DNA of 32,782 nt from assembly GCA_021806645.1 (NCBI GenBank), contig JAJZQX010000025.1:1-32782 (forward strand), written 5' to 3'. This document shows, piece by piece, positions 1,271-25,854 of the stretch (within the stretch, counting starts at the first letter, position 1; each line of letters starts with the position of its first letter). The translations under genes were made by a program, and so were the position numbers. Below the pieces are notes generated by a model. It saw nothing but the letters and a program-made list of their open reading frames with translations, had not been told where the DNA came from and did no database searches. This DNA comes from Myxococcales bacterium. Lineage in GTDB: Bacteria; Myxococcota; Myxococcia; Myxococcales; Anaeromyxobacteraceae.

Positions 1271-4171
1271 GTGACCAGGCGGCCGCCTCCACCCGATGGC
1301 TCCAGCCTGGTTGAACCCGGGCAGGTCACCGCCCTGCTCGCCGCGCTCGCCGCCGCACCCGCCGGCCGGGAGGGATCCTGGCGCGAGGAGCCCCTCCCCG
1401 GCGACCAGGTCGATCGCTTCCGGCTGCTCCGTCGCATCGGGAAGGGCGGCTTCGGGGTGGTGTTCGAGGCGCGCGACGAGGTGCTGGGACGGCTCGTTGC
1501 CCTCAAGCTGGTGCGATCCGTCCACCGCGTGACGCCCGCCTCGGAGCGGCTCTTCATGGAGGCCGAGGCGGCGGCCCGGCTCTCCCACCCCAACATCGTG
1601 ACCCTCTTCGACGTCGGGCGCTGTGACCGGGGTCCGTACCTGGTCCTCGAGCTGCTGCGAGGTGAGTCGCTGGCGGCCCGCCTGGATCGCGGATCGGTCC
1701 AACTCCCGGAGGCGGTCCGGATCGGCTGCGAGGTCGCCAAGGCCCTGGCCCACGCGCACCGGCACGCGGTGGTCCACCGCGATCTGAAGCCGGGCAACGT
1801 CTTCCTCGGCGAGGACGGCCAGGTGAAGGTGCTCGACTTCGGTATGGCCCACGCCTTCGGCCTCCCCCGGGTCGACGGCGGCACGCCGGCCTACATGGCG
1901 CCCGAGCAGCGCTCGGGGGCGCCCGAGGACGAGCGGACCGACGTCTACGCGCTCGGCGTCACGCTCTACCAGTTGCTCACCGGCAAGCTGCCGCACGGAG
2001 ACGACGGCCGCCAGCACGCCCGCCTCCCCACGGCGCGGCTCGCCATTCCCGAGGCACCGGCCCTCTCGGACCTGGTGCACCGGATGCTGGAGCGCGACCC
2101 GGTACGGCGGCCGCGCGATGGCGCCGAGGCGGTCGATGCGCTCGAGGGCGTGTCCAGCTCGCTCAAGGTGGCGCCGGTCCGCCCGGCACGGCCGGTGAAG
2201 CGCCGGCGCCGCTGGCCGGTGGCGGTGGCGGTGGCCTGCGCCGGGATCGCGGCCACGTTGGTCATGCACCGGGTGTGGCCCACCACGCCGCCCGCCGCGA
2301 CCGGCCGCCTGGTGCTGGCCGTGGCCGACATCGCCAACGAGACCGGCGAGAAGGAGCTGGAACTCTCCGGGCTGCTCCGCATCGTCCTCGAGCAGTCCAC
2401 CTACCTCGAGGTCCTGCCCCGTGGGCGGCTGGTGGACGCGCTGCCGAAGACCCAGGCGGAGGGGCTGGTGCACCTCGACGAGACGGTGGCCCTGGCGGCG
2501 GCCCGCGCCGTTCACGCCCGGTTCGTGCTGGTGGCGCGACTCATGAAGCTGGGGGAGACCTACCTGATGGAGGTCCGGGCCATCGAGCAGGCCTCGGGAC
2601 TGAGCCACTTCTCTTTCAAGGAGCAGGTCCTCGGGAAGGACCTGCTGTCCGGACTGGTCGACCGGGTCGGTGAGCGGGCGCGACTGCTGTTCGGCGAGGA
2701 TCCGGCTGCCATTCGCACCAGCACCATTCCGGCAGGCATGGTGACCGCCAGCCTGTCGGCCTGGCAAGCCTACTCGGGCGGCATGGCCTGCCTTGAGCGG
2801 GGCTACTTCGCCGGCTCGTTCGGCGCGTGCCTGGTCGATCTGGAGAGGGCGGTGGGCATCGATTCCGGCTTCGGCCTGGCCTACCTCCAACTGGCGGTGC
2901 TCAGGTTCCTCGAAGGAGAGCCACTGGCCCTCCAGAAGGCGGCGCTTGGGAAGGCACGAGCCAACTTAGACCGGGTCCCGCCACACAATCGCCAGCGACT
3001 CGAGGGCCAGGTGGCCCTGCTGGACGGAAACGAGGTCAAGGCGAAGCAGCTCTTCCGCGCCTCGGCCGAGGCCTCTCCGGACGACAAGTTCGCCTGGTGG
3101 CTGGCTGCCGAGATCCCCTTCCACCGCGATGAGTACGCAGAGGCGCTACCCCTCTTCCGGCGCATCCACGAGCTCGACCCGACCTGGCTCGACGCCACGC
3201 AACACCTGACCTTCGCACTTGGCGTCACTGGCGACCTGGATGGCGTGCGCGCGCTGGTCAGCGAGCTGGACACCCCTGGCCAAGGGGCCAGGGCCCAGGC
3301 AGCCACCTGCTACGCGCGGCTCTGGATCGACCCGTCCAACGCCGTGACCACATGCCAGCGCGCGCGGCGGGTTGAGGCCAGCGAGACGACCGACGGCTTC
3401 CTCGCCATCGCCCTCCTGAACGCCGACCGTCCCGGCGACCTCGGCCTACACCTCGATGCCATGCAGCGAGCCAGGAGAGGGATGGTCCGCGGCTTCGCCT
3501 GGTACATGCGCCTCTGGCTCCTCGCCCAGGAGGGGCGCTGGTCGGAGGTCGAGCAGGTCGCCGCGGCAGAGCGGGACCCCGCTGATGCCTGGTTCCACAG
3601 CACCTATGCAGAGGTCATCGCCGGCGCGGGCGATCCTGGGCTGGTCCGCCGGGAAGCATTGCGCCTCCTGGAGCTCAACCGGTCGCTGGCGTCGAATCTT
3701 GCGGTCCACCTCGCCTACCTCGGCGACCTCCGTGGCGCCGCGGACCTCGAGCGCTACCTGCCGCCCGACTCCCCGCGCGTGGAAGCCTATCGGGCCCTGG
3801 TCCGGTGGCGCTCCGGCGACCTTGCGGGGGCCATCGAGCCGTTGCGACGGGTGGCTGCCAAGGCGCCCGCAGGTACCACCCCCGAAATCCCTCCACCTCT
3901 CTACCTGCTCGGCGAAGCCTTGTCCGAGGCGGGCCACGATGCAGAGGCGGTGGACGCCCTGCGCAAGTACCAGCGCATACCGGTGCTGGTGCCGACCTGG
4001 TTCAGGCCACTCAGTTCCTGGTTCCTGGCCCGCTCACTCGATCGGCTGGGCGATCGTGACGGGGCGCGGCAGGCCCTGGCCCCGTTGCTGAAGCTCTGGC
4101 GCCAGGCAAATGGGAACCAGCCTCACCTCGCCGAGGCTCTGGCACTTGGGAAGCGGCTTGGCATCGAGTGA
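1271..4171 (+). CDS. Ser/Thr protein kinase with TM helix and TPR sensor
   Basis: This is a Hanks-type receptor kinase of 966 residues. The GTG at 1271 is chosen because GGGAGGG lies just upstream. The kinase domain covers about 50-310: glycine loop GKGGFGVV (57-64), ATP lysine K79, catalytic loop HRDLKPGN (169-176), DFG 189-191 and APE 210-212, so all key residues are present. A basic linker leads to one transmembrane helix (about 315-333). The C-terminal part begins with a FlgO/adenylate-cyclase-associated type beta/alpha segment (about 345-460) and continues as TPR-like helical pairs to the end. The topology implies a cytoplasmic kinase with the large C-terminal part across the inner membrane. 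This layout is common in myxobacteria. The ligand and substrates are unknown. The next gene encodes an exported protein and could be a functional partner, but they are 102 bases apart. Confidence 0.9.
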   Translation: MTRRPPPPDGSSLVEPGQVTALLAALAAAPAGREGSWREEPLPGDQVDRFRLLRRIGKGGFGVVFEARDEVLGRLVALKLVRSVHRVTPASERLFMEAEAAARLSHPNIVTLFDVGRCDRGPYLVLELLRGESLAARLDRGSVQLPEAVRIGCEVAKALAHAHRHAVVHRDLKPGNVFLGEDGQVKVLDFGMAHAFGLPRVDGGTPAYMAPEQRSGAPEDERTDVYALGVTLYQLLTGKLPHGDDGRQHARLPTARLAIPEAPALSDLVHRMLERDPVRRPRDGAEAVDALEGVSSSLKVAPVRPARPVKRRRRWPVAVAVACAGIAATLVMHRVWPTTPPAATGRLVLAVADIANETGEKELELSGLLRIVLEQSTYLEVLPRGRLVDALPKTQAEGLVHLDETVALAAARAVHARFVLVARLMKLGETYLMEVRAIEQASGLSHFSFKEQVLGKDLLSGLVDRVGERARLLFGEDPAAIRTSTIPAGMVTASLSAWQAYSGGMACLERGYFAGSFGACLVDLERAVGIDSGFGLAYLQLAVLRFLEGEPLALQKAALGKARANLDRVPPHNRQRLEGQVALLDGNEVKAKQLFRASAEASPDDKFAWWLAAEIPFHRDEYAEALPLFRRIHELDPTWLDATQHLTFALGVTGDLDGVRALVSELDTPGQGARAQAATCYARLWIDPSNAVTTCQRARRVEASETTDGFLAIALLNADRPGDLGLHLDAMQRARRGMVRGFAWYMRLWLLAQEGRWSEVEQVAAAERDPADAWFHSTYAEVIAGAGDPGLVRREALRLLELNRSLASNLAVHLAYLGDLRGAADLERYLPPDSPRVEAYRALVRWRSGDLAGAIEPLRRVAAKAPAGTTPEIPPPLYLLGEALSEAGHDAEAVDALRKYQRIPVLVPTWFRPLSSWFLARSLDRLGDRDGARQALAPLLKLWRQANGNQPHLAEALALGKRLGIE

Positions 4172-6660: not shown

Positions 6661-8883
6661 CTTGGCCGCGGTCACGTTGACGTCCCGCGGGCAGACCTGC
6701 ACGAAGCGCTCGAGCCGGCTCCGCGCGGTGTCGCGCGCCTTCCGAGACTCCTCGTCCCGGCCCCGCGCCGCGTCCCAGCCCATCTTGCCGGCGTTCCAGA
6801 GCGCCTGGCAGGAGGCCGGATCCCTGTCGAGCGCCTTCACGTAGAGCGAGAAGACCAGGTCGGCCCGGGCCCCGCGCGTCCGCTCGATGTCGGCCATCTC
6901 GACGAAGGCCTGCGCGGCGCTGCCGGCCCCGCCCTGCCCGTACTCGGTGATGGCCAGGTCGAGCTCGGCCAGCGCGGCCGGCACGTTCTTCAGCTCCCGG
7001 AGGAGCCTGGCCAGGGCCACCCGCGCGTCGGGGTACGGCTTCCCGAGCTGGATGGAGCGCTCGTACTGGCCGCGGGCCCGGTCGGTGTCGCCCTGCGCCC
7101 GGTAGGCGTCGCCCAGCAGCAAGGCGATGCGCGGGTGGTCGCCGGCGCGCGCGGTGGCCTTCCGCAGCACCTCGATGGCCCTCTTGCCGCCGTCGGGGGT
7201 GGCCAGCAGGGCGCGGTTCAGGTCGACGTAGAAGGCCACCCGCCTCGGATCGCCATTCACCGCCCGCTGGATCGAGGCCACCGCCGCGGCCACCTCGCCG
7301 TCGCGCAGCTGCCGCCGCCCGATCATCCACGGCAGGTCGGGGTTCCGGGGATCGAGCTCGAGGGCCTTCTTCTCGTCGGCGGTCCCCGCGGTCGCCTTGC
7401 CCTGCGCGAAGAGGACCGAGCCTCGCACCGCGTAGGCCAGGGCCTGCTGGGGGGGACTGGCGTCTCCCCCGGTCAACACCAGCTGGACGTGCTGCGCCGC
7501 CTGCTCGAAGAGGCCGCGCTCCAGCAGCAACACGGCCCGTCCCAGCAGCGACGGGACGTGATCCTTCTGCAGCCGCAGGGCCAGCTGGTAGGCGTTGTCC
7601 GCCTGCTGCTCGTACCCCTCGCCGCGGCGGCGGTACTGCTCCGCCAGCTGCTGGGCGATCCGCACGTCGTTGGGGTTGAGCTTCTGTGCGCGGACCAGCC
7701 ACTCGCGCGCGCCATCGAGGTCCCCGGAGGCCATGAGCAGCACCCCCATGGCGCCGGAGAGCAGCCCGGTCTGCCGCGCCGGGTCCTCCAGCTCCGCCTT
7801 GAGCCCGGAGATGCCGCCGGGGAGATCGCCGGTGGCCGCCTTGAGGTAGGCCTCGGCGGCGATCAGGTGCGAGTGGTTGCCCAGCTTCCGCCCGGCCTCC
7901 AGGTTGGCGATCGCCTCGCCCTTCACCGCGTCGCCCTCGGCGTGCTCCATGAAGCGAATCGCGTCGATGTAGGAGAGGAAGGCATGGCCGGCCAGCGAGC
8001 CCGGGTCCTCCACGAGGATGGCGTGGGCCTTCTCGGCGGCGGTCCGGTAGGCACCGAACGAGTCGCGTGCCACCTGCTCCTGCGTCTCCTTGAGCAACGC
8101 GGCGATGGCCTCCACCTGGTGCTTGTGGGCGCGAGAGACGAGCTGCCAGGCCACCAGCGAGACCACCAGCACCACCGCCAGCCCGATGGTGGCGAACACC
8201 GTTGTCCGGCTCGCTCCCTTGCGCGGCCTGGCCGGGCCGGGGCTGTTGAGGCCCCAGGACTGCGTGCCGTACTTCTCCGCCAGCTGCCGGGCGTAGGCGT
8301 CACCGGCGCGCGGCACCGGCGTCGGGATGGGCTGCTCCTGGGAGGCCAGACGAGGCGCGACTGGCGGCTGGCCGGGCGAGCCGGGACGGCCCAGCACCGG
8401 CGGACCACCGGCTGGCGGCGGCGGGCGCGGCGGCGGCGGCGGCGGCGGTGGAGGCGGGGCGACCGTGACACCGTGCTTCTCCAGGGCGGCCAGCACGTCG
8501 GGATCGGACGGCCCGGCTTCGGCGGCCCGGCGGAGGGCGGCCTCGCCCTCGGCGCGCGCGCCACCGCGGAAGTGGAGCGTGGCGGCGAGCAGGTTGCCGG
8601 CGGCGTAGTTCGGGTAGGCGGTGAGTACCAGCGTCACCTCCTCGATCGCCTTCTTGTCCTTTCCCTGGTCGGCGTAGACACGCGCCAGCAGCACCTTGGC
8701 GGCCGGATCGTCGGGGTGCGTCTTGACCCCCTTCTTGCAGACCACCATGGCCTCCATGAAGCGGCCGGCGGCCAGGTAGGCCTCCGCGAGCTGGCGGTAG
8801 GCGTCGGACGCGGGATCCGCGGCGAACGCGTGCTCGAGGCTGGCGAGCTCCGCGGCCGTGAACTGTCTCTTGGGGCCGGACAT
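6634..8883 (-). CDS. TPR-repeat membrane protein
   Basis: The protein has 749 residues, counted from the ATG complementary to 8881-8883 (MSGPKRQFTAAEL). An in-frame ATG at 8904 is the alternative. Residues 10-135 form N-terminal TPR-like helices. A proline-rich segment (about 143-165) and an extended linker lead to one transmembrane helix (about 227-246). The remaining 500 residues are TPR pairs on the other side of the membrane. The protein probably acts as a scaffold in envelope protein assembly; no catalytic motif is visible. The last codons of this gene are duplicated at 997-1023. The gene is convergent with the lipoprotein/cytochrome pair. Confidence 0.85.
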   Translation of the reverse strand: MSGPKRQFTAAELASLEHAFAADPASDAYRQLAEAYLAAGRFMEAMVVCKKGVKTHPDDPAAKVLLARVYADQGKDKKAIEEVTLVLTAYPNYAAGNLLAATLHFRGGARAEGEAALRRAAEAGPSDPDVLAALEKHGVTVAPPPPPPPPPPRPPPPAGGPPVLGRPGSPGQPPVAPRLASQEQPIPTPVPRAGDAYARQLAEKYGTQSWGLNSPGPARPRKGASRTTVFATIGLAVVLVVSLVAWQLVSRAHKHQVEAIAALLKETQEQVARDSFGAYRTAAEKAHAILVEDPGSLAGHAFLSYIDAIRFMEHAEGDAVKGEAIANLEAGRKLGNHSHLIAAEAYLKAATGDLPGGISGLKAELEDPARQTGLLSGAMGVLLMASGDLDGAREWLVRAQKLNPNDVRIAQQLAEQYRRRGEGYEQQADNAYQLALRLQKDHVPSLLGRAVLLLERGLFEQAAQHVQLVLTGGDASPPQQALAYAVRGSVLFAQGKATAGTADEKKALELDPRNPDLPWMIGRRQLRDGEVAAAVASIQRAVNGDPRRVAFYVDLNRALLATPDGGKRAIEVLRKATARAGDHPRIALLLGDAYRAQGDTDRARGQYERSIQLGKPYPDARVALARLLRELKNVPAALAELDLAITEYGQGGAGSAAQAFVEMADIERTRGARADLVFSLYVKALDRDPASCQALWNAGKMGWDAARGRDEESRKARDTARSRLERFVQVCPRDVNVTAAKAIVAAARK
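8428..8448. repeat. CGG trinucleotide tract
   Basis: Seven uninterrupted CGG units on the plus strand encode part of the polyproline linker of the TPR protein on the other strand. Such a tract can change length by slippage in frame, which would vary the linker. Confidence 0.8.
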
Positions 8884-8894
8884 GGGGCGTCCGA

Positions 8895-20458: not shown

Positions 20459-21121
20459 CTACCCGACCGTGTCCGCGTAGGTCATGACCAGGAACATGAC
20501 CGCGTCCCGGTCGCCCCGGTTCCGGTAGACGTGCGGGACGTCCGCCTCGAAGACGATGGCGTCCCCCGCGTCGAGCGGCTCGCGCCGGCCCGACACCTCG
20601 ATCTCCACCTGCCCCTGCGCCACCACCAGGTTCTCGGTGGTGCCCGGGTTGTGGGCCTCGGCCTTCTCGACGCCGCCAGGCCGCACCGTCAACTGGTAGA
20701 ACTCCACCCGCCTCGGCGAGTCGAAGGGAAAGAGGGCCCGCGAGCTGAAGGTGCCGTCGTGGCTGGTGAGGAGCTTGGCCTGGGCGGCGCGCAGCACCTG
20801 GAGCCCGCCCTCGCTGCGCGCGCTGATGAGACCGGAGAACGGGACGCCGAGCGCGGAGGCGATCTTCCAGAGCACGTTTATGGTCGGCGCGCTCTGGCCC
20901 AGCTCGATCTGGCCGAGCATGGCGCGCGACACGCCGGAGAGCTTGGAGAGCTTCTCCAGCGAGAGGCCGCGCTGGCCCCGCAGCCGCCGGAGGTTGTTGC
21001 CGACCACCGGGGTCAGGTCGGTGGCGCCCAGGCTCTCACGATGCTCCGGGGCCACCGACTCCGGCTCGGGGGCGGCCCGGCCACGCCTCTTTCTGGTCCC
21101 GCTGTCGCGCGTGCTCTTCAT
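20459..21121 (-). CDS. XRE-cupin transcriptional regulator
   Basis: The protein has 220 residues. The ATG complementary to 21119-21121 is chosen because it is the first start before the HTH. The start region is basic, and the HTH_3/XRE domain is at about 38-95 (VVGNNLRRLRGQRGLSLEKL, then LSGVSRAMLGQIELGQSAPT). A small-molecule-sensing cupin barrel fills about 140-215 (VRPGGVEKAEAHNPGTTENL, then DAGDAIVFEADVPHVYRN). Family members sense amino acids, polyamines or similar ligands and usually repress their own operon and a divergent one. Palindromic sites lie immediately upstream. The neighbouring regulator gene is co-transcribed. Confidence 0.88.
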   Translation of the reverse strand: MKSTRDSGTRKRRGRAAPEPESVAPEHRESLGATDLTPVVGNNLRRLRGQRGLSLEKLSKLSGVSRAMLGQIELGQSAPTINVLWKIASALGVPFSGLISARSEGGLQVLRAAQAKLLTSHDGTFSSRALFPFDSPRRVEFYQLTVRPGGVEKAEAHNPGTTENLVVAQGQVEIEVSGRREPLDAGDAIVFEADVPHVYRNRGDRDAVMFLVMTYADTVG

Positions 21122-22178
21122 GGTCAGGGACTTTTCCGTTACAACGGACTGGTTGTCAACGCGTCTCCCCATCCCCGAAGGGCCCTGGCGGCTGACCCTG
21201 GTCACCGATCCGGACGACTGCAACCTCGCCTGCGACATGTGCGAGTGCGGCCGGGCGCGACGGGAGCCCGCGCCGGGCCGCCCGCCGCGCCGCATGGACG
21301 CGGCGCTGGCGCTCGCCCTGGTGGCCGAGCTGGGCGGCGGCACCTTGCGGGAGGTGATCCCTTCGACCCTGGGCGAGCCTCTTCTCTGGTCGGGGTTGGA
21401 CGCCCTCCTCGACGCCTGCGCCGCCGCCCGCGTCCAGCTCAACGTCACCACCAACGGCACCTGGCCGGGGCGCGGGGCGCGCCGCTGGGGCGAGCGGCTC
21501 GCTCCGCTGGCCAGCGACGTCAAGGTCTCCTGGAACGGCGCCACCGCCGCCACCGCCGAGGCGATCATGACCGGGCTCGACTTCGCCGCCGCCGTCCAGG
21601 GGGTGCGCGACTTCGCGGCCGCCCGCGACCAGGTGTCGGCGCGGACCGGCCACCGCTGCCGCCTCTCCTTCCAGGTGACGGCGCAGGCCGCCAACGTCGG
21701 CGAGCTGGGGGCGCTGGTGGCGCTGGCCGCCTCCCTGTCGGTGGACCGGGTCAAGGTGAACCAGCTCCAGCCGCTTGTGCCCGCCCTCGAGGCGCGCGCC
21801 CTCCCCGCCACCGAGGCGGGGCGGGACCGCTGGAACCGGGCGGTCGAGGCGATGCGGAGGAGCGCGTCCGAGGCGGCCACGGCGGGCCGGGCCGTCGAGC
21901 TGCAGAACGTGACCCCGCTCCCGCCCCTGGGTGCGCCACCGGCGCCTCCCGGGCCGTGCCCCTTCGTCGGGCGCGAGGCCTGGGTGCTCCACGACGGGAC
22001 CTTCGCCCCCTGCCCCCACCCGGCCGCATGGCGCGGCGAGCTGGGTGAGTTCGGCTCGGTGGGGGCGCAGCCCCTCCTGGCCATCTGGGGCGGCCCGGCC
22101 CTGGCCCGCCTGGCCGCCGGTTACGAGGATCATCCCGTCTGCCGAGCTTGCCCGCTGCGACGTCCCGGCGGCGCCTGA
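21120..22178 (+). CDS. Radical SAM enzyme with partial SPASM domain
   Basis: The protein has 352 residues from the ATG at 21120. That start overlaps the divergent regulator's start by two bases, so TTG at 21153 (11 codons later) is a serious alternative. The 4Fe-4S/SAM motif CxxxCxxC is at C34, C38, C41 (CNLACDMC). The TIM-barrel body includes the VIPSTLGEPLLW and LNVTTNGTW segments. Near the C-terminus C280-x12-G-x4-C298 fits the CX9-15GX4C element of SPASM domains, followed by C341-x2-C344. That is four cysteines, as in a twitch-type domain for one auxiliary cluster. Such enzymes often modify peptides or proteins. The next gene, 59 bases on, encodes a Cys-rich protein that could be the substrate, but this is inference. 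Confidence 0.85.
   Translation: MVRDFSVTTDWLSTRLPIPEGPWRLTLVTDPDDCNLACDMCECGRARREPAPGRPPRRMDAALALALVAELGGGTLREVIPSTLGEPLLWSGLDALLDACAAARVQLNVTTNGTWPGRGARRWGERLAPLASDVKVSWNGATAATAEAIMTGLDFAAAVQGVRDFAAARDQVSARTGHRCRLSFQVTAQAANVGELGALVALAASLSVDRVKVNQLQPLVPALEARALPATEAGRDRWNRAVEAMRRSASEAATAGRAVELQNVTPLPPLGAPPAPPGPCPFVGREAWVLHDGTFAPCPHPAAWRGELGEFGSVGAQPLLAIWGGPALARLAAGYEDHPVCRACPLRRPGGA
21136..21160. promoter_or_regulatory. Paired palindromes at the XRE/radical-SAM divergence
   Basis: CCGTT-AC-AACGG (21136-21147) and GTTG-T-CAAC (21152-21160) are adjacent palindromes sharing the GTT...CAAC theme, about 14-15 bases centre to centre. They lie just upstream of the XRE-cupin start and over the first codons (or leader) of the divergent radical SAM gene, the right place for an autoregulatory operator. 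Confidence 0.5.
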
Positions 22179-22237: not shown

Positions 22238-22693
22238 ATGGAGGAACTCCTCTCACCGGACCGGCTCGACCGCCGCGGCTTCGACGCCGCGCTCCAGGGG
22301 CTGCTCGAGGCGCACGCGGAGAGCGACGAGAACCCCGGCTCGGTCCGCTGCGAGCGGTGCCGCGCCTGTGTCTCCTGCACGTTCTGCACGGACTGCGAGG
22401 CCTGCCACCACGCCACCCACTGCACCGGCTGCCGCGCCTCCTCGCACCTCACCCACTGCCACGACTGCACCGGCTGCCACGACAGCGCCTACTGCGAGCA
22501 GTCGGAGAACTGCGCCGGCGCCTCCTACCTCGTGCTCTGCCGCGACTGCTCCGACTGCACCTACTGCTTCGGCTGCGTCGGCCTGGCCAGGAAGGACTTC
22601 CACATCCTCAACCGTCCCTACACGCGCAGCGAGTACTTCCGGATCATGGAGAAGCTGCGCGGCGTGCTCGGCCTGGCCGCTAGGCGCCGCTGA
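22238..22693 (+). CDS. Cys-rich protein with CxxCxxC arrays
   Basis: The protein has 151 residues; its ATG is preceded by GGCAGGA. An acidic helical leader of about 35 residues precedes a core (38-113) with 19 cysteines. Seven follow each other at every third residue (38-56), three at 74-80 and five at 101-113. Many His, Asp and Thr fill the gaps. The tail FGCVGLARKDFHILNRPYTR is reminiscent of an uncharacterised bacterial family ending CFGCVGL..K.Y.I.N..Y..EEY. Metal binding (zinc or iron-sulphur) in the cytoplasm is likely; there is no signal or membrane helix. It lies between a radical SAM gene and an M23 peptidase gene, and its stop is 5 bases before the latter. The function is unknown. 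Confidence 0.85.
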   Translation: MEELLSPDRLDRRGFDAALQGLLEAHAESDENPGSVRCERCRACVSCTFCTDCEACHHATHCTGCRASSHLTHCHDCTGCHDSAYCEQSENCAGASYLVLCRDCSDCTYCFGCVGLARKDFHILNRPYTRSEYFRIMEKLRGVLGLAARRR

Positions 22694-24842: not shown

Positions 24843-25568
24843 ATGGAGAACACGACCATGACCACCACCTCCCTTGACCTCCCCTCCGCGCGCCAGCTCC
24901 GCGACGCGCTCGCCACCCTCCTCCGCACCGAGCAGACCGCCATGGCCGAGTTCCTAGTCGCGCTGGCCGATTTCGACCGGCGACGCGGCTGGGAGCCGCT
25001 CGGGCACGCGTCACTCTTCGCGTTCCTGCACGTGGAGTTGCGGCTCTCCAACAGCGCGTCCTTCTGGCGGATGAGCGCGGCTCGGCTGCTGCAGCGCTTC
25101 CCGGACCTCATCGAGCCGCTCGGCGACGGGCGGTTGTGCCTCTCGACGACCGCGGAGCTGGCCAAGGTGCTGACCAAGGAGAACCGGGCCGAGGTGGCCC
25201 CTCGCTTCTTCGGCCTCTCCGCGCGGGAGGCCAGGGAGGTCGTCGCCGAGTTGCTCCCGCGGGATGTTCCGCCGCTCCGCGCGGTCGTGACCAGCATGAA
25301 CAAGCCCGCGACGATTCCGGGATTGACGCTGGCGCCGGCGCCCTCGCCGTCCGAGGCCAGCCGGGCTGAGGCGTACTCAGGGTCACTTCTGACGTCAGAA
25401 GTCACGCCGACCCACCCCGCGCGGGACGCGGCTCGCCGCGACGACGTCGAACCGCTCACCGCTGAGCTGCGCCGGCTGCACATCACGGTGGACCGCCAGT
25501 TCCTGAAGCTGCTCGACGCCGCGCGCGACGGCCTCTCCCACTCCATTCCCGACCTCGCCCGCGTCTGA
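24843..25568 (+). pseudogene. HNH endonuclease gene, N-terminal part (broken)
   Basis: This frame of 241 codons starts at an ATG preceded by GAGAGG and encodes the helical N-terminal region typical of myxobacterial HNH endonuclease family proteins: LRDALATLLRTEQTAMAEFL, then HASLFAFLHVELRLSNSASF and LHITVDRQFLKLLDAARDGL. In intact relatives this is followed by a helix of 30-40 residues and a C-terminal HNH domain. Here the frame stops at 25566-25568, and the HNH part continues in another frame at 25597. A deletion plus frameshift fits. A truncated protein could still be made. Confidence 0.75.
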
Positions 25569-25596
25569 GCCGCTCCACCGCAGGATCGGCCCGCGC

Positions 25597-25854
25597 GTGA
25601 CCATCCCCGCCGAGGTGCGCCGCGCCGTCTGGGAGCGCGACGGCGGCCGCTGCACCTGGCCGCTCGACGGGGGTGGATGCTGCGGTTCAACCCACCGGCT
25701 GGAGTTCGACCACGTCATCCCGTGGGCCCGTGGCAGCGAACCGGCGGTGGACGGACTCCGCCTCCTCTGCAGACCGCACAACCTCCTGGCGGCGCGCCGG
25801 ACGTTCGGGGCGCGGTGCATGGATCGGTACGCCGGTCGAGCAGCGGCCGGATGA
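25597..25854 (+). pseudogene. HNH nuclease domain, detached C-terminal part
   Basis: This frame of 85 codons from a GTG encodes an HNH-like domain: VRRAVWERDGGRC, then CGSTHRLEFDHVIPWARG and LRLLCRPHN. The Cys pairs and the first and last His are present. The middle position, usually Asn in a ...ENLRLLC context, reads DGLRLLC, so the central Asn is replaced by Gly. There is no good ribosome site before the GTG. It is probably the detached tail of the gene at 24843 and inactive. Confidence 0.75.

Follow-up and report, generated by a model that had tools for sequence, protein, structure and literature searches.

Introduction

The closest described counterpart, by predicted structure, of the protein analysed here is the insect antifreeze protein TmAFP (1EZG/1L1I, PF02420), a tight β-helix with a TCTxSxNCxxAx repeat and a TxT ice-binding face. 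In coils of this type the residues point out-in-out-out-in and so on, with C2, S5, C8 and A11 on the inside and with disulfides between C2 and C8 (PMC8038014). β-Helical rods are also formed by the pentapeptide repeat proteins, such as Qnr and MfpA, for which one account gives a period of five residues, with four repeats to the coil (PMC8145042). Repeating Cys-Xaa-Xaa units are on record in bacteriocin precursors of the heterocycloanthracin type, where repeats are inserted or deleted among strains (Haft 2009, PMC2674419). Cys-rich proteins have been described in Peribacteria (PMC4736985); these are large and mostly exported, and so are different from the family presented below. A search of the open literature for a β-helix with Cys at every third residue, for the name 'CaiB/BaiF' in this context and for the family in myxobacteria found nothing.

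The cysteine array and its family

The window (the whole stretch of 32,782 nucleotides that was analysed) encodes a protein, P0001, in which the cysteines are spaced with striking regularity:

22238..22693, forward strand: gene for P0001, a 151-residue Cys-rich protein (open reading frame from ATG to TGA and its translation; orthologues)

All 19 cysteines of P0001 (C38, C41, C44, C47, C50, C53, C56, C62, C65, C74, C77, C80, C86, C92, C101, C104, C107, C110 and C113) fall within the 76 residues 38–113 and in a single three-residue register, for which the exact probability is 5.2e-12; in 200,000 shuffles of the sequence no more than 15 of the 19 ever shared a register. The count of 19 in 76 residues and the two unbroken runs, seven at 38–56 and five at 101–113, are thus exactly as the initial annotation had read them. 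A codon pattern for five Cys spaced by three has four matches in the 4.14-Mb genome, all at the two runs of P0001, and the gene is present there in single copy. Neither the translation nor the alignment of homologues reveals a visible hydrophobic signal sequence at the N-terminus.

Relatives were found at 38 loci in a search of a genome collection, under labels such as Myxococcota or 'deltaproteobacteria', and a profile search detected one copy each in 127 of the 195 Myxococcota genomes. The matches span 402–414 bases in all 127, nearly the full 138 positions of the model, and so the length of the body of the family is essentially fixed. Two sets of sequences were used for the analysis of conservation: an alignment of 29 members (A1), ungapped in the body, and a set of 77 distinct orthologues chosen by the motif C.YCF.CVG, for which reason the invariance of those letters is taken from A1 only. 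The period-three spacing, whose absence from homologues would have spoken against the initial annotation, is kept in both sets, and Cys fills 78% of the in-register positions of the 77 orthologues, Ser 13% and Leu 7%. The C-terminal end is nearly invariant in A1 (DCTYCFGCVG..(K/R)(K/E)DFhILN..Y.R.EYF), so that the family suspected earlier from its CFGCVGL...EEY tail is a real one. Residues L22, C44, C47, F49, C92 and Y97 are also invariant in A1.

No Pfam or NCBIfam model, metal-binding ones included, matches P0001, and the same holds in Pfam for the 29 members of A1. Homologues on plasmids were not found, and a scan of viral contigs with the family alignment gave no confirmed member. A related tail may also occur in candidate-phyla-radiation bacteria; a DNA pattern for it had no match in the viral contigs. 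In close orthologue pairs outside the window dN/dS is 0.01–0.16 (L009/L013, L021/L022, L038/L039) or 0.24–0.29 (among L076–L078), which indicates purifying selection, strong in some pairs. Values of 0.4–0.6 were obtained for the window's copy against L002 and L076–L078 by the Nei-Gojobori method, which is unreliable at this GC content, and constraint may be weaker within P0001's own family of bacteria than in the other pairs. The protein family is real, conserved and uncharacterised.

Predicted fold

AF2, run on the A1 alignment, predicts a tight β-helix that is capped at both ends and makes seven coils of 12 residues. The seven strands recur with an exact period of 12 residues, block pLDDT is about 86–93 over residues 41–100, and the model as a whole has a mean pLDDT of 78 and a pTM of 0.62. 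The predicted parts are as follows, all on the forward strand:

22238..22345, forward strand: N-terminal cap, residues 1-36, with helix 12-28 and then an NPGS turn (AF2)
22346..22381, forward strand: coil 1, residues 37-48, strand 37-39; inward C38, C41, C44, C47
22382..22417, forward strand: coil 2, residues 49-60, strand 49-51; inward C50, C53, C56, A59; outward F49, invariant
22418..22453, forward strand: coil 3, residues 61-72, strand 61-63; inward C62, C65, S68, L71; outward H61
22454..22489, forward strand: coil 4, residues 73-84, strand 73-75; inward C74, C77, C80, S83; outward H73
22490..22525, forward strand: coil 5, residues 85-96, strand 85-87; inward C86, S89, C92, A95; outward Y85
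22526..22561, forward strand: coil 6, residues 97-108, strand 97-99; inward L98, C101, C104, C107; outward Y97
22562..22585, forward strand: last turn, residues 109-116 (YCFGCVGL), strand 109-111; inward C110, C113, L116
22586..22690, forward strand: C-terminal cap, residues 117-151, with short strands and then helix 130-144 (KDFHILNRPYTRSEYFRIMEKL...) (AF2)

VIA-align, which ranks chains preselected by Foldseek, placed TmAFP (1EZG) at the top with a Z of 9.5 (2.7 Å over 81 residues, 24% identity), followed by an NMR entry of TmAFP at Z 6.4 and by all other proteins at Z 5.6 or less; the top score is only moderately above the Z of 7–8 reached by models without clear matches. Foldseek alone gave no PDB match to the model at E<0.001. 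In a sequence-profile search of the PDB, which is independent of the structure search, 1EZG was again the top hit, though a weak one (E 0.025). Periodicity was also tested on the outward residues, without recourse to the structure or the cysteines: these residues resemble each other at a lag of 12 (p=0.0002), more faintly at a lag of 24, and not at lags 3, 6, 9, 15, 18 or 21, which supports a coil length of 12. Both the fold and the coil length are therefore predictions, drawn from a structure model and from periodicity.

A tight 12-residue β-helix in which every third residue faces inward explains the spacing of the cysteines. The inward positions of the family form four columns, and in the model every third residue of P0001 most likely points inward, with the thiols making up the core of the rod. 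The suggestion that a period of three would bring all thiols to one face of a helix or coil thus agrees with the predicted geometry; the second half of the same suggestion, that they bind a chain of metal ions or clusters, fares differently and is taken up below. On the outside, one residue per coil forms a ladder along one edge, F49-H61-H73-Y85-Y97-Y109. F49 and Y97 are found in 77 of the 77 orthologues, H61 in 71, H73 in 72 and Y85 in 71; Y109 is fixed by the motif that selected this set, yet it is invariant in A1 too. The caps are likewise conserved: F15, L22, N32 and G34 in the N-terminal one, and F121, L124, N125, R130 and F134, all invariant in A1, in the C-terminal one. The last turn is invariant in A1 as well, except for the nearly invariant L116.

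The likeness to TmAFP thus consists of a predicted 12-residue tight β-helix with inward residues at every third position and Cys inside. However, P0001 has neither the TCTxSxNCxxAx repeat nor a TxT ladder (the residues flanking the column are R/E, F/T, H/T, H/H, Y/E, Y/V and Y/F) and shows the aromatic/His ladder instead; it has coils with as many as four inward Cys, conserved N- and C-caps, a fixed number of coils and no visible signal peptide. None of the 29 members of A1 matches PF02420 at E<=0.1. Identity as an antifreeze protein was rejected on the lack of a TxT face, of a visible signal peptide and of a PF02420 match. Pentapeptide repeat proteins also appear in the structural match lists, as β-helix rods, but P0001 differs from them in its period of three, its 12-residue coil and the lack of a Pfam match. 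On the predicted model, P0001 is best regarded as a novel form of the narrow β-helix known from TmAFP.

State of the cysteines

Since the predicted coil geometry is that of TmAFP, whose coils carry C2–C8 disulfides, i/i+6 disulfides could be expected to staple each coil of P0001 in the same way, and at the pairs 38–44, 50–56, 62–68 and 86–92 both residues are indeed Cys in most orthologues. However, cysteines six apart show no joint loss (mean phi of -0.06; 3 co-changes on shared branches, where 5.1 are expected); the residue opposite C110, at position 116, is Leu, Met or Ile, and the one opposite C104, at position 98, is Leu or Val; and the invisibility of a signal peptide probably places the protein in the reducing cytoplasm. 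With no joint loss at i/i+6, a Leu facing C110 and no visible signal, obligate disulfides of the TmAFP type are unlikely, and we regard a disulfide-stabilised helix as a very improbable reading of the family.

Could the inward thiols bind metal instead? As a metal-thiolate protein, P0001 would hold Zn, Cu(I) or Fe-S at one or two local sites or in an axial chain, the sites lying in coils 1–3 and perhaps at C107, C110 and C113 near the cap, together with position 122. All four inward positions are Cys in 65 of the 77 orthologues in coil 1 and in 58 in coil 2, and A1 has C107, C110 and C113 without exception; at position 122 the residue is His in 66 sequences, Tyr in 6 and Cys in 5, in part the His/Cys exchange that is seen at metal ligands. 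Against this, Tyr is no such exchange in the six sequences that carry it, Leu takes the place of Cys at 71, 80 and 104, and position 98 is always Leu or Val. The four-Cys arrangement, present in 52 of the 77 in coil 3, drops to 27 in coil 4 and is found in none of them in coil 5, which is mostly CSCS, or in coil 6. Coil-wide joint loss of Cys was not seen, and no metal-related gene recurs throughout beside the Cys gene among the loci examined. Since Leu and Ser replace Cys at so many positions, it is unlikely that every coil holds a metal site of four Cys. Binding of metal in one form or another is on the whole unlikely, although not to the degree of the disulfide reading; a local site is possibly present in coils 1–3 or near the cap.

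The most ambitious form of the proposal is a metal-thiolate wire, in which as many as four inward thiols from each coil would be stacked so as to keep metal ions in a line inside a predicted cytoplasmic β-helix conserved across Myxococcota. Coils of a β-helix usually rise by about 4.8 Å, which would be the spacing of the stacked thiols. Such a wire seems to us very doubtful, and the chain of metal ions or clusters in the initial annotation is not borne out: Ser and Leu replace inward Cys, joint loss is found neither within nor across coils, and a tight core would readily explain the arrangement. Of that reading as a whole, the one-face coil geometry is supported, as a predicted fold, and the metal chain is not.

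With 19 Cys among its 151 residues, a very high share, P0001 would also fit a thiol reservoir or redox buffer, the cysteines reacting with oxidants or electrophiles. However, all of them are predicted to face inward, and a simple thiol store would not need a fixed length, conserved caps and a ladder, so that we give this role little credence.

Cysteine arrays in phages

Long CxxC arrays are also found in Campylobacter phages (17 records), in Vibrio phage 1.238 and in Flavobacterium phage FL-1, and they resemble P0001 in their long runs of Cys at every third residue. The only family model to match is phrog_15341, a phage family of no assigned function, which matches 29 of the 29 members of A1 (best E 7e-11); with P0001, 49 of the 276 positions of the profile align, within the Cys repeat, where composition may drive the match. 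The sequence match of the phage arrays to the P0001 family could come from composition alone. The phage proteins differ in having N-terminal domains of their own, in being longer and variable (up to 76 Cys) and in lacking the CFGCVG...EYF cap. One of them, a structural match to the P0001 model in BFVD, is named 'Caib/baif family protein' and another is annotated 'insect antifreeze protein'. AF2 gave no confident model for one phage array, run on a two-sequence alignment (pLDDT 41, with 25–39 in the array), and so the 12-residue coil is not something that AF2 returns for every CxxC array. The lag test on one phage array found no significant period.

The metal-wire reading would have a parallel in phages. 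At one phage locus (L114) two tandem paralogues, at 2418-2936 and 3001-3855, have 47 and 76 Cys, nearly all three apart, and share the N-terminal domain MxLIDGYYxDSxNNKWDA. In Flavobacterium phage FL-1 (L040, 2788-3492) the annotated protein, APZ82901.1, lies in another frame of the CxxC array, and the frame that continues the homology to the Vibrio phage is a 234-residue open reading frame with Cys at every third residue.

Gene neighbourhood

Two genes lie upstream of the Cys gene:

20459-21076, reverse strand: XRE-cupin regulator, divergent from the radical SAM gene, which it abuts or overlaps
20937-22178, forward strand: radical SAM protein of the SPASM type without an assigned subfamily, present here in the own genus alone

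The SPASM gene just upstream on the same strand, together with the known CXX-repeat bacteriocin precursors, raises the question whether P0001 is a RiPP precursor, akin to the Cys-Xaa-Xaa heterocycloanthracins, or is acted on by the radical SAM enzyme. However, among the loci examined the radical SAM gene adjoins the Cys gene only in the own genus (L002/L075), and a partnership between the two was rejected on this ground. Nor is a YcaO cyclodehydratase co-distributed with the Cys gene, which occurs without YcaO in G058, G102, G104, G106 and G111, with YcaO present and the Cys gene absent in G031, G032 and G037; the YcaO link was likewise dropped. The family is of fixed length, in contrast to the repeat indels of the precursors, and its conserved capped fold, as modelled, is unlike a precursor. 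A RiPP role is, in our estimate, the least credible reading, with next to no probability.

No neighbouring gene is conserved throughout the loci examined. An M23 peptidase gene downstream of the Cys gene is limited to the own genus and to relatives in the same family (L076–L078), and a UvrD/PcrA-like helicase and an RlmI-like methyltransferase lie beside it at many loci of one family. At seven loci (L007, L020, L032, L033, L035, L038 and L039) a D-aminoacyl-tRNA deacylase follows directly; in all seven it either overlaps the Cys gene slightly or begins no more than 12 bases beyond its end, which suggests that the two genes are co-transcribed in that clade. The Cys gene precedes an ABC-F-like ATPase at L008 and has a BadF/BcrA-type activase next to it, on the opposite strand, at some loci. 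The translation flavour of some of these neighbours is only a lead. Separately, an HNH-motif gene at 24843-25854 is divided between two frames, while L002 has one intact 445-residue frame at 7556-8893; the split probably reflects a broken copy or a sequencing frameshift.

Proposed role of P0001

What would the buried cysteines then be for? The explanation that we prefer, and to which we give slightly better than even credence, is that P0001 is a cytoplasmic, capped β-helix rod of fixed length, in which the Cys core is mainly reduced and serves packing, and the ladder and cap provide a binding face. The rod would consist of the seven 12-residue coils, closed by the N-terminal helix cap and the conserved C-terminal strand-helix cap. 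Cys, sometimes replaced by Ser, Ala or Leu, would be used inside because its small, mildly hydrophobic side chain fits a narrow interior with no room for an ordinary core; Ser and Leu are the replacements of inward Cys seen in orthologues. On the simplest reading, Cys serves well to fill so narrow a core when the cell is reducing, and an occasional disulfide or local metal site could be accommodated within this reading. The near-invariance of C41, C44, C47, C50, C53, C56, C65 and C92 is stricter than packing would seem to need.

The conserved Phe/His/Tyr ladder suggests a binding rod, as far as can be read from sequence, and together with the cap it would present a face to a partner, so that P0001 would work as a rigid adaptor or ligand-binding rod. 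Both the reduced state of the thiols and this binding role are what we infer from the predicted fold and its conservation.

If this proposal is right, the narrow β-helix of an extracellular insect antifreeze protein would also be found as a conserved, single-copy intracellular protein in a bacterial phylum, and a thiol core would replace the conventional hydrophobic core in a β-helix that has no Pfam or NCBIfam family. P0001 would then also supply a naturally capped scaffold whose length is fixed, and would offer a clear, testable case for the role of buried Cys rows in a reducing cell.
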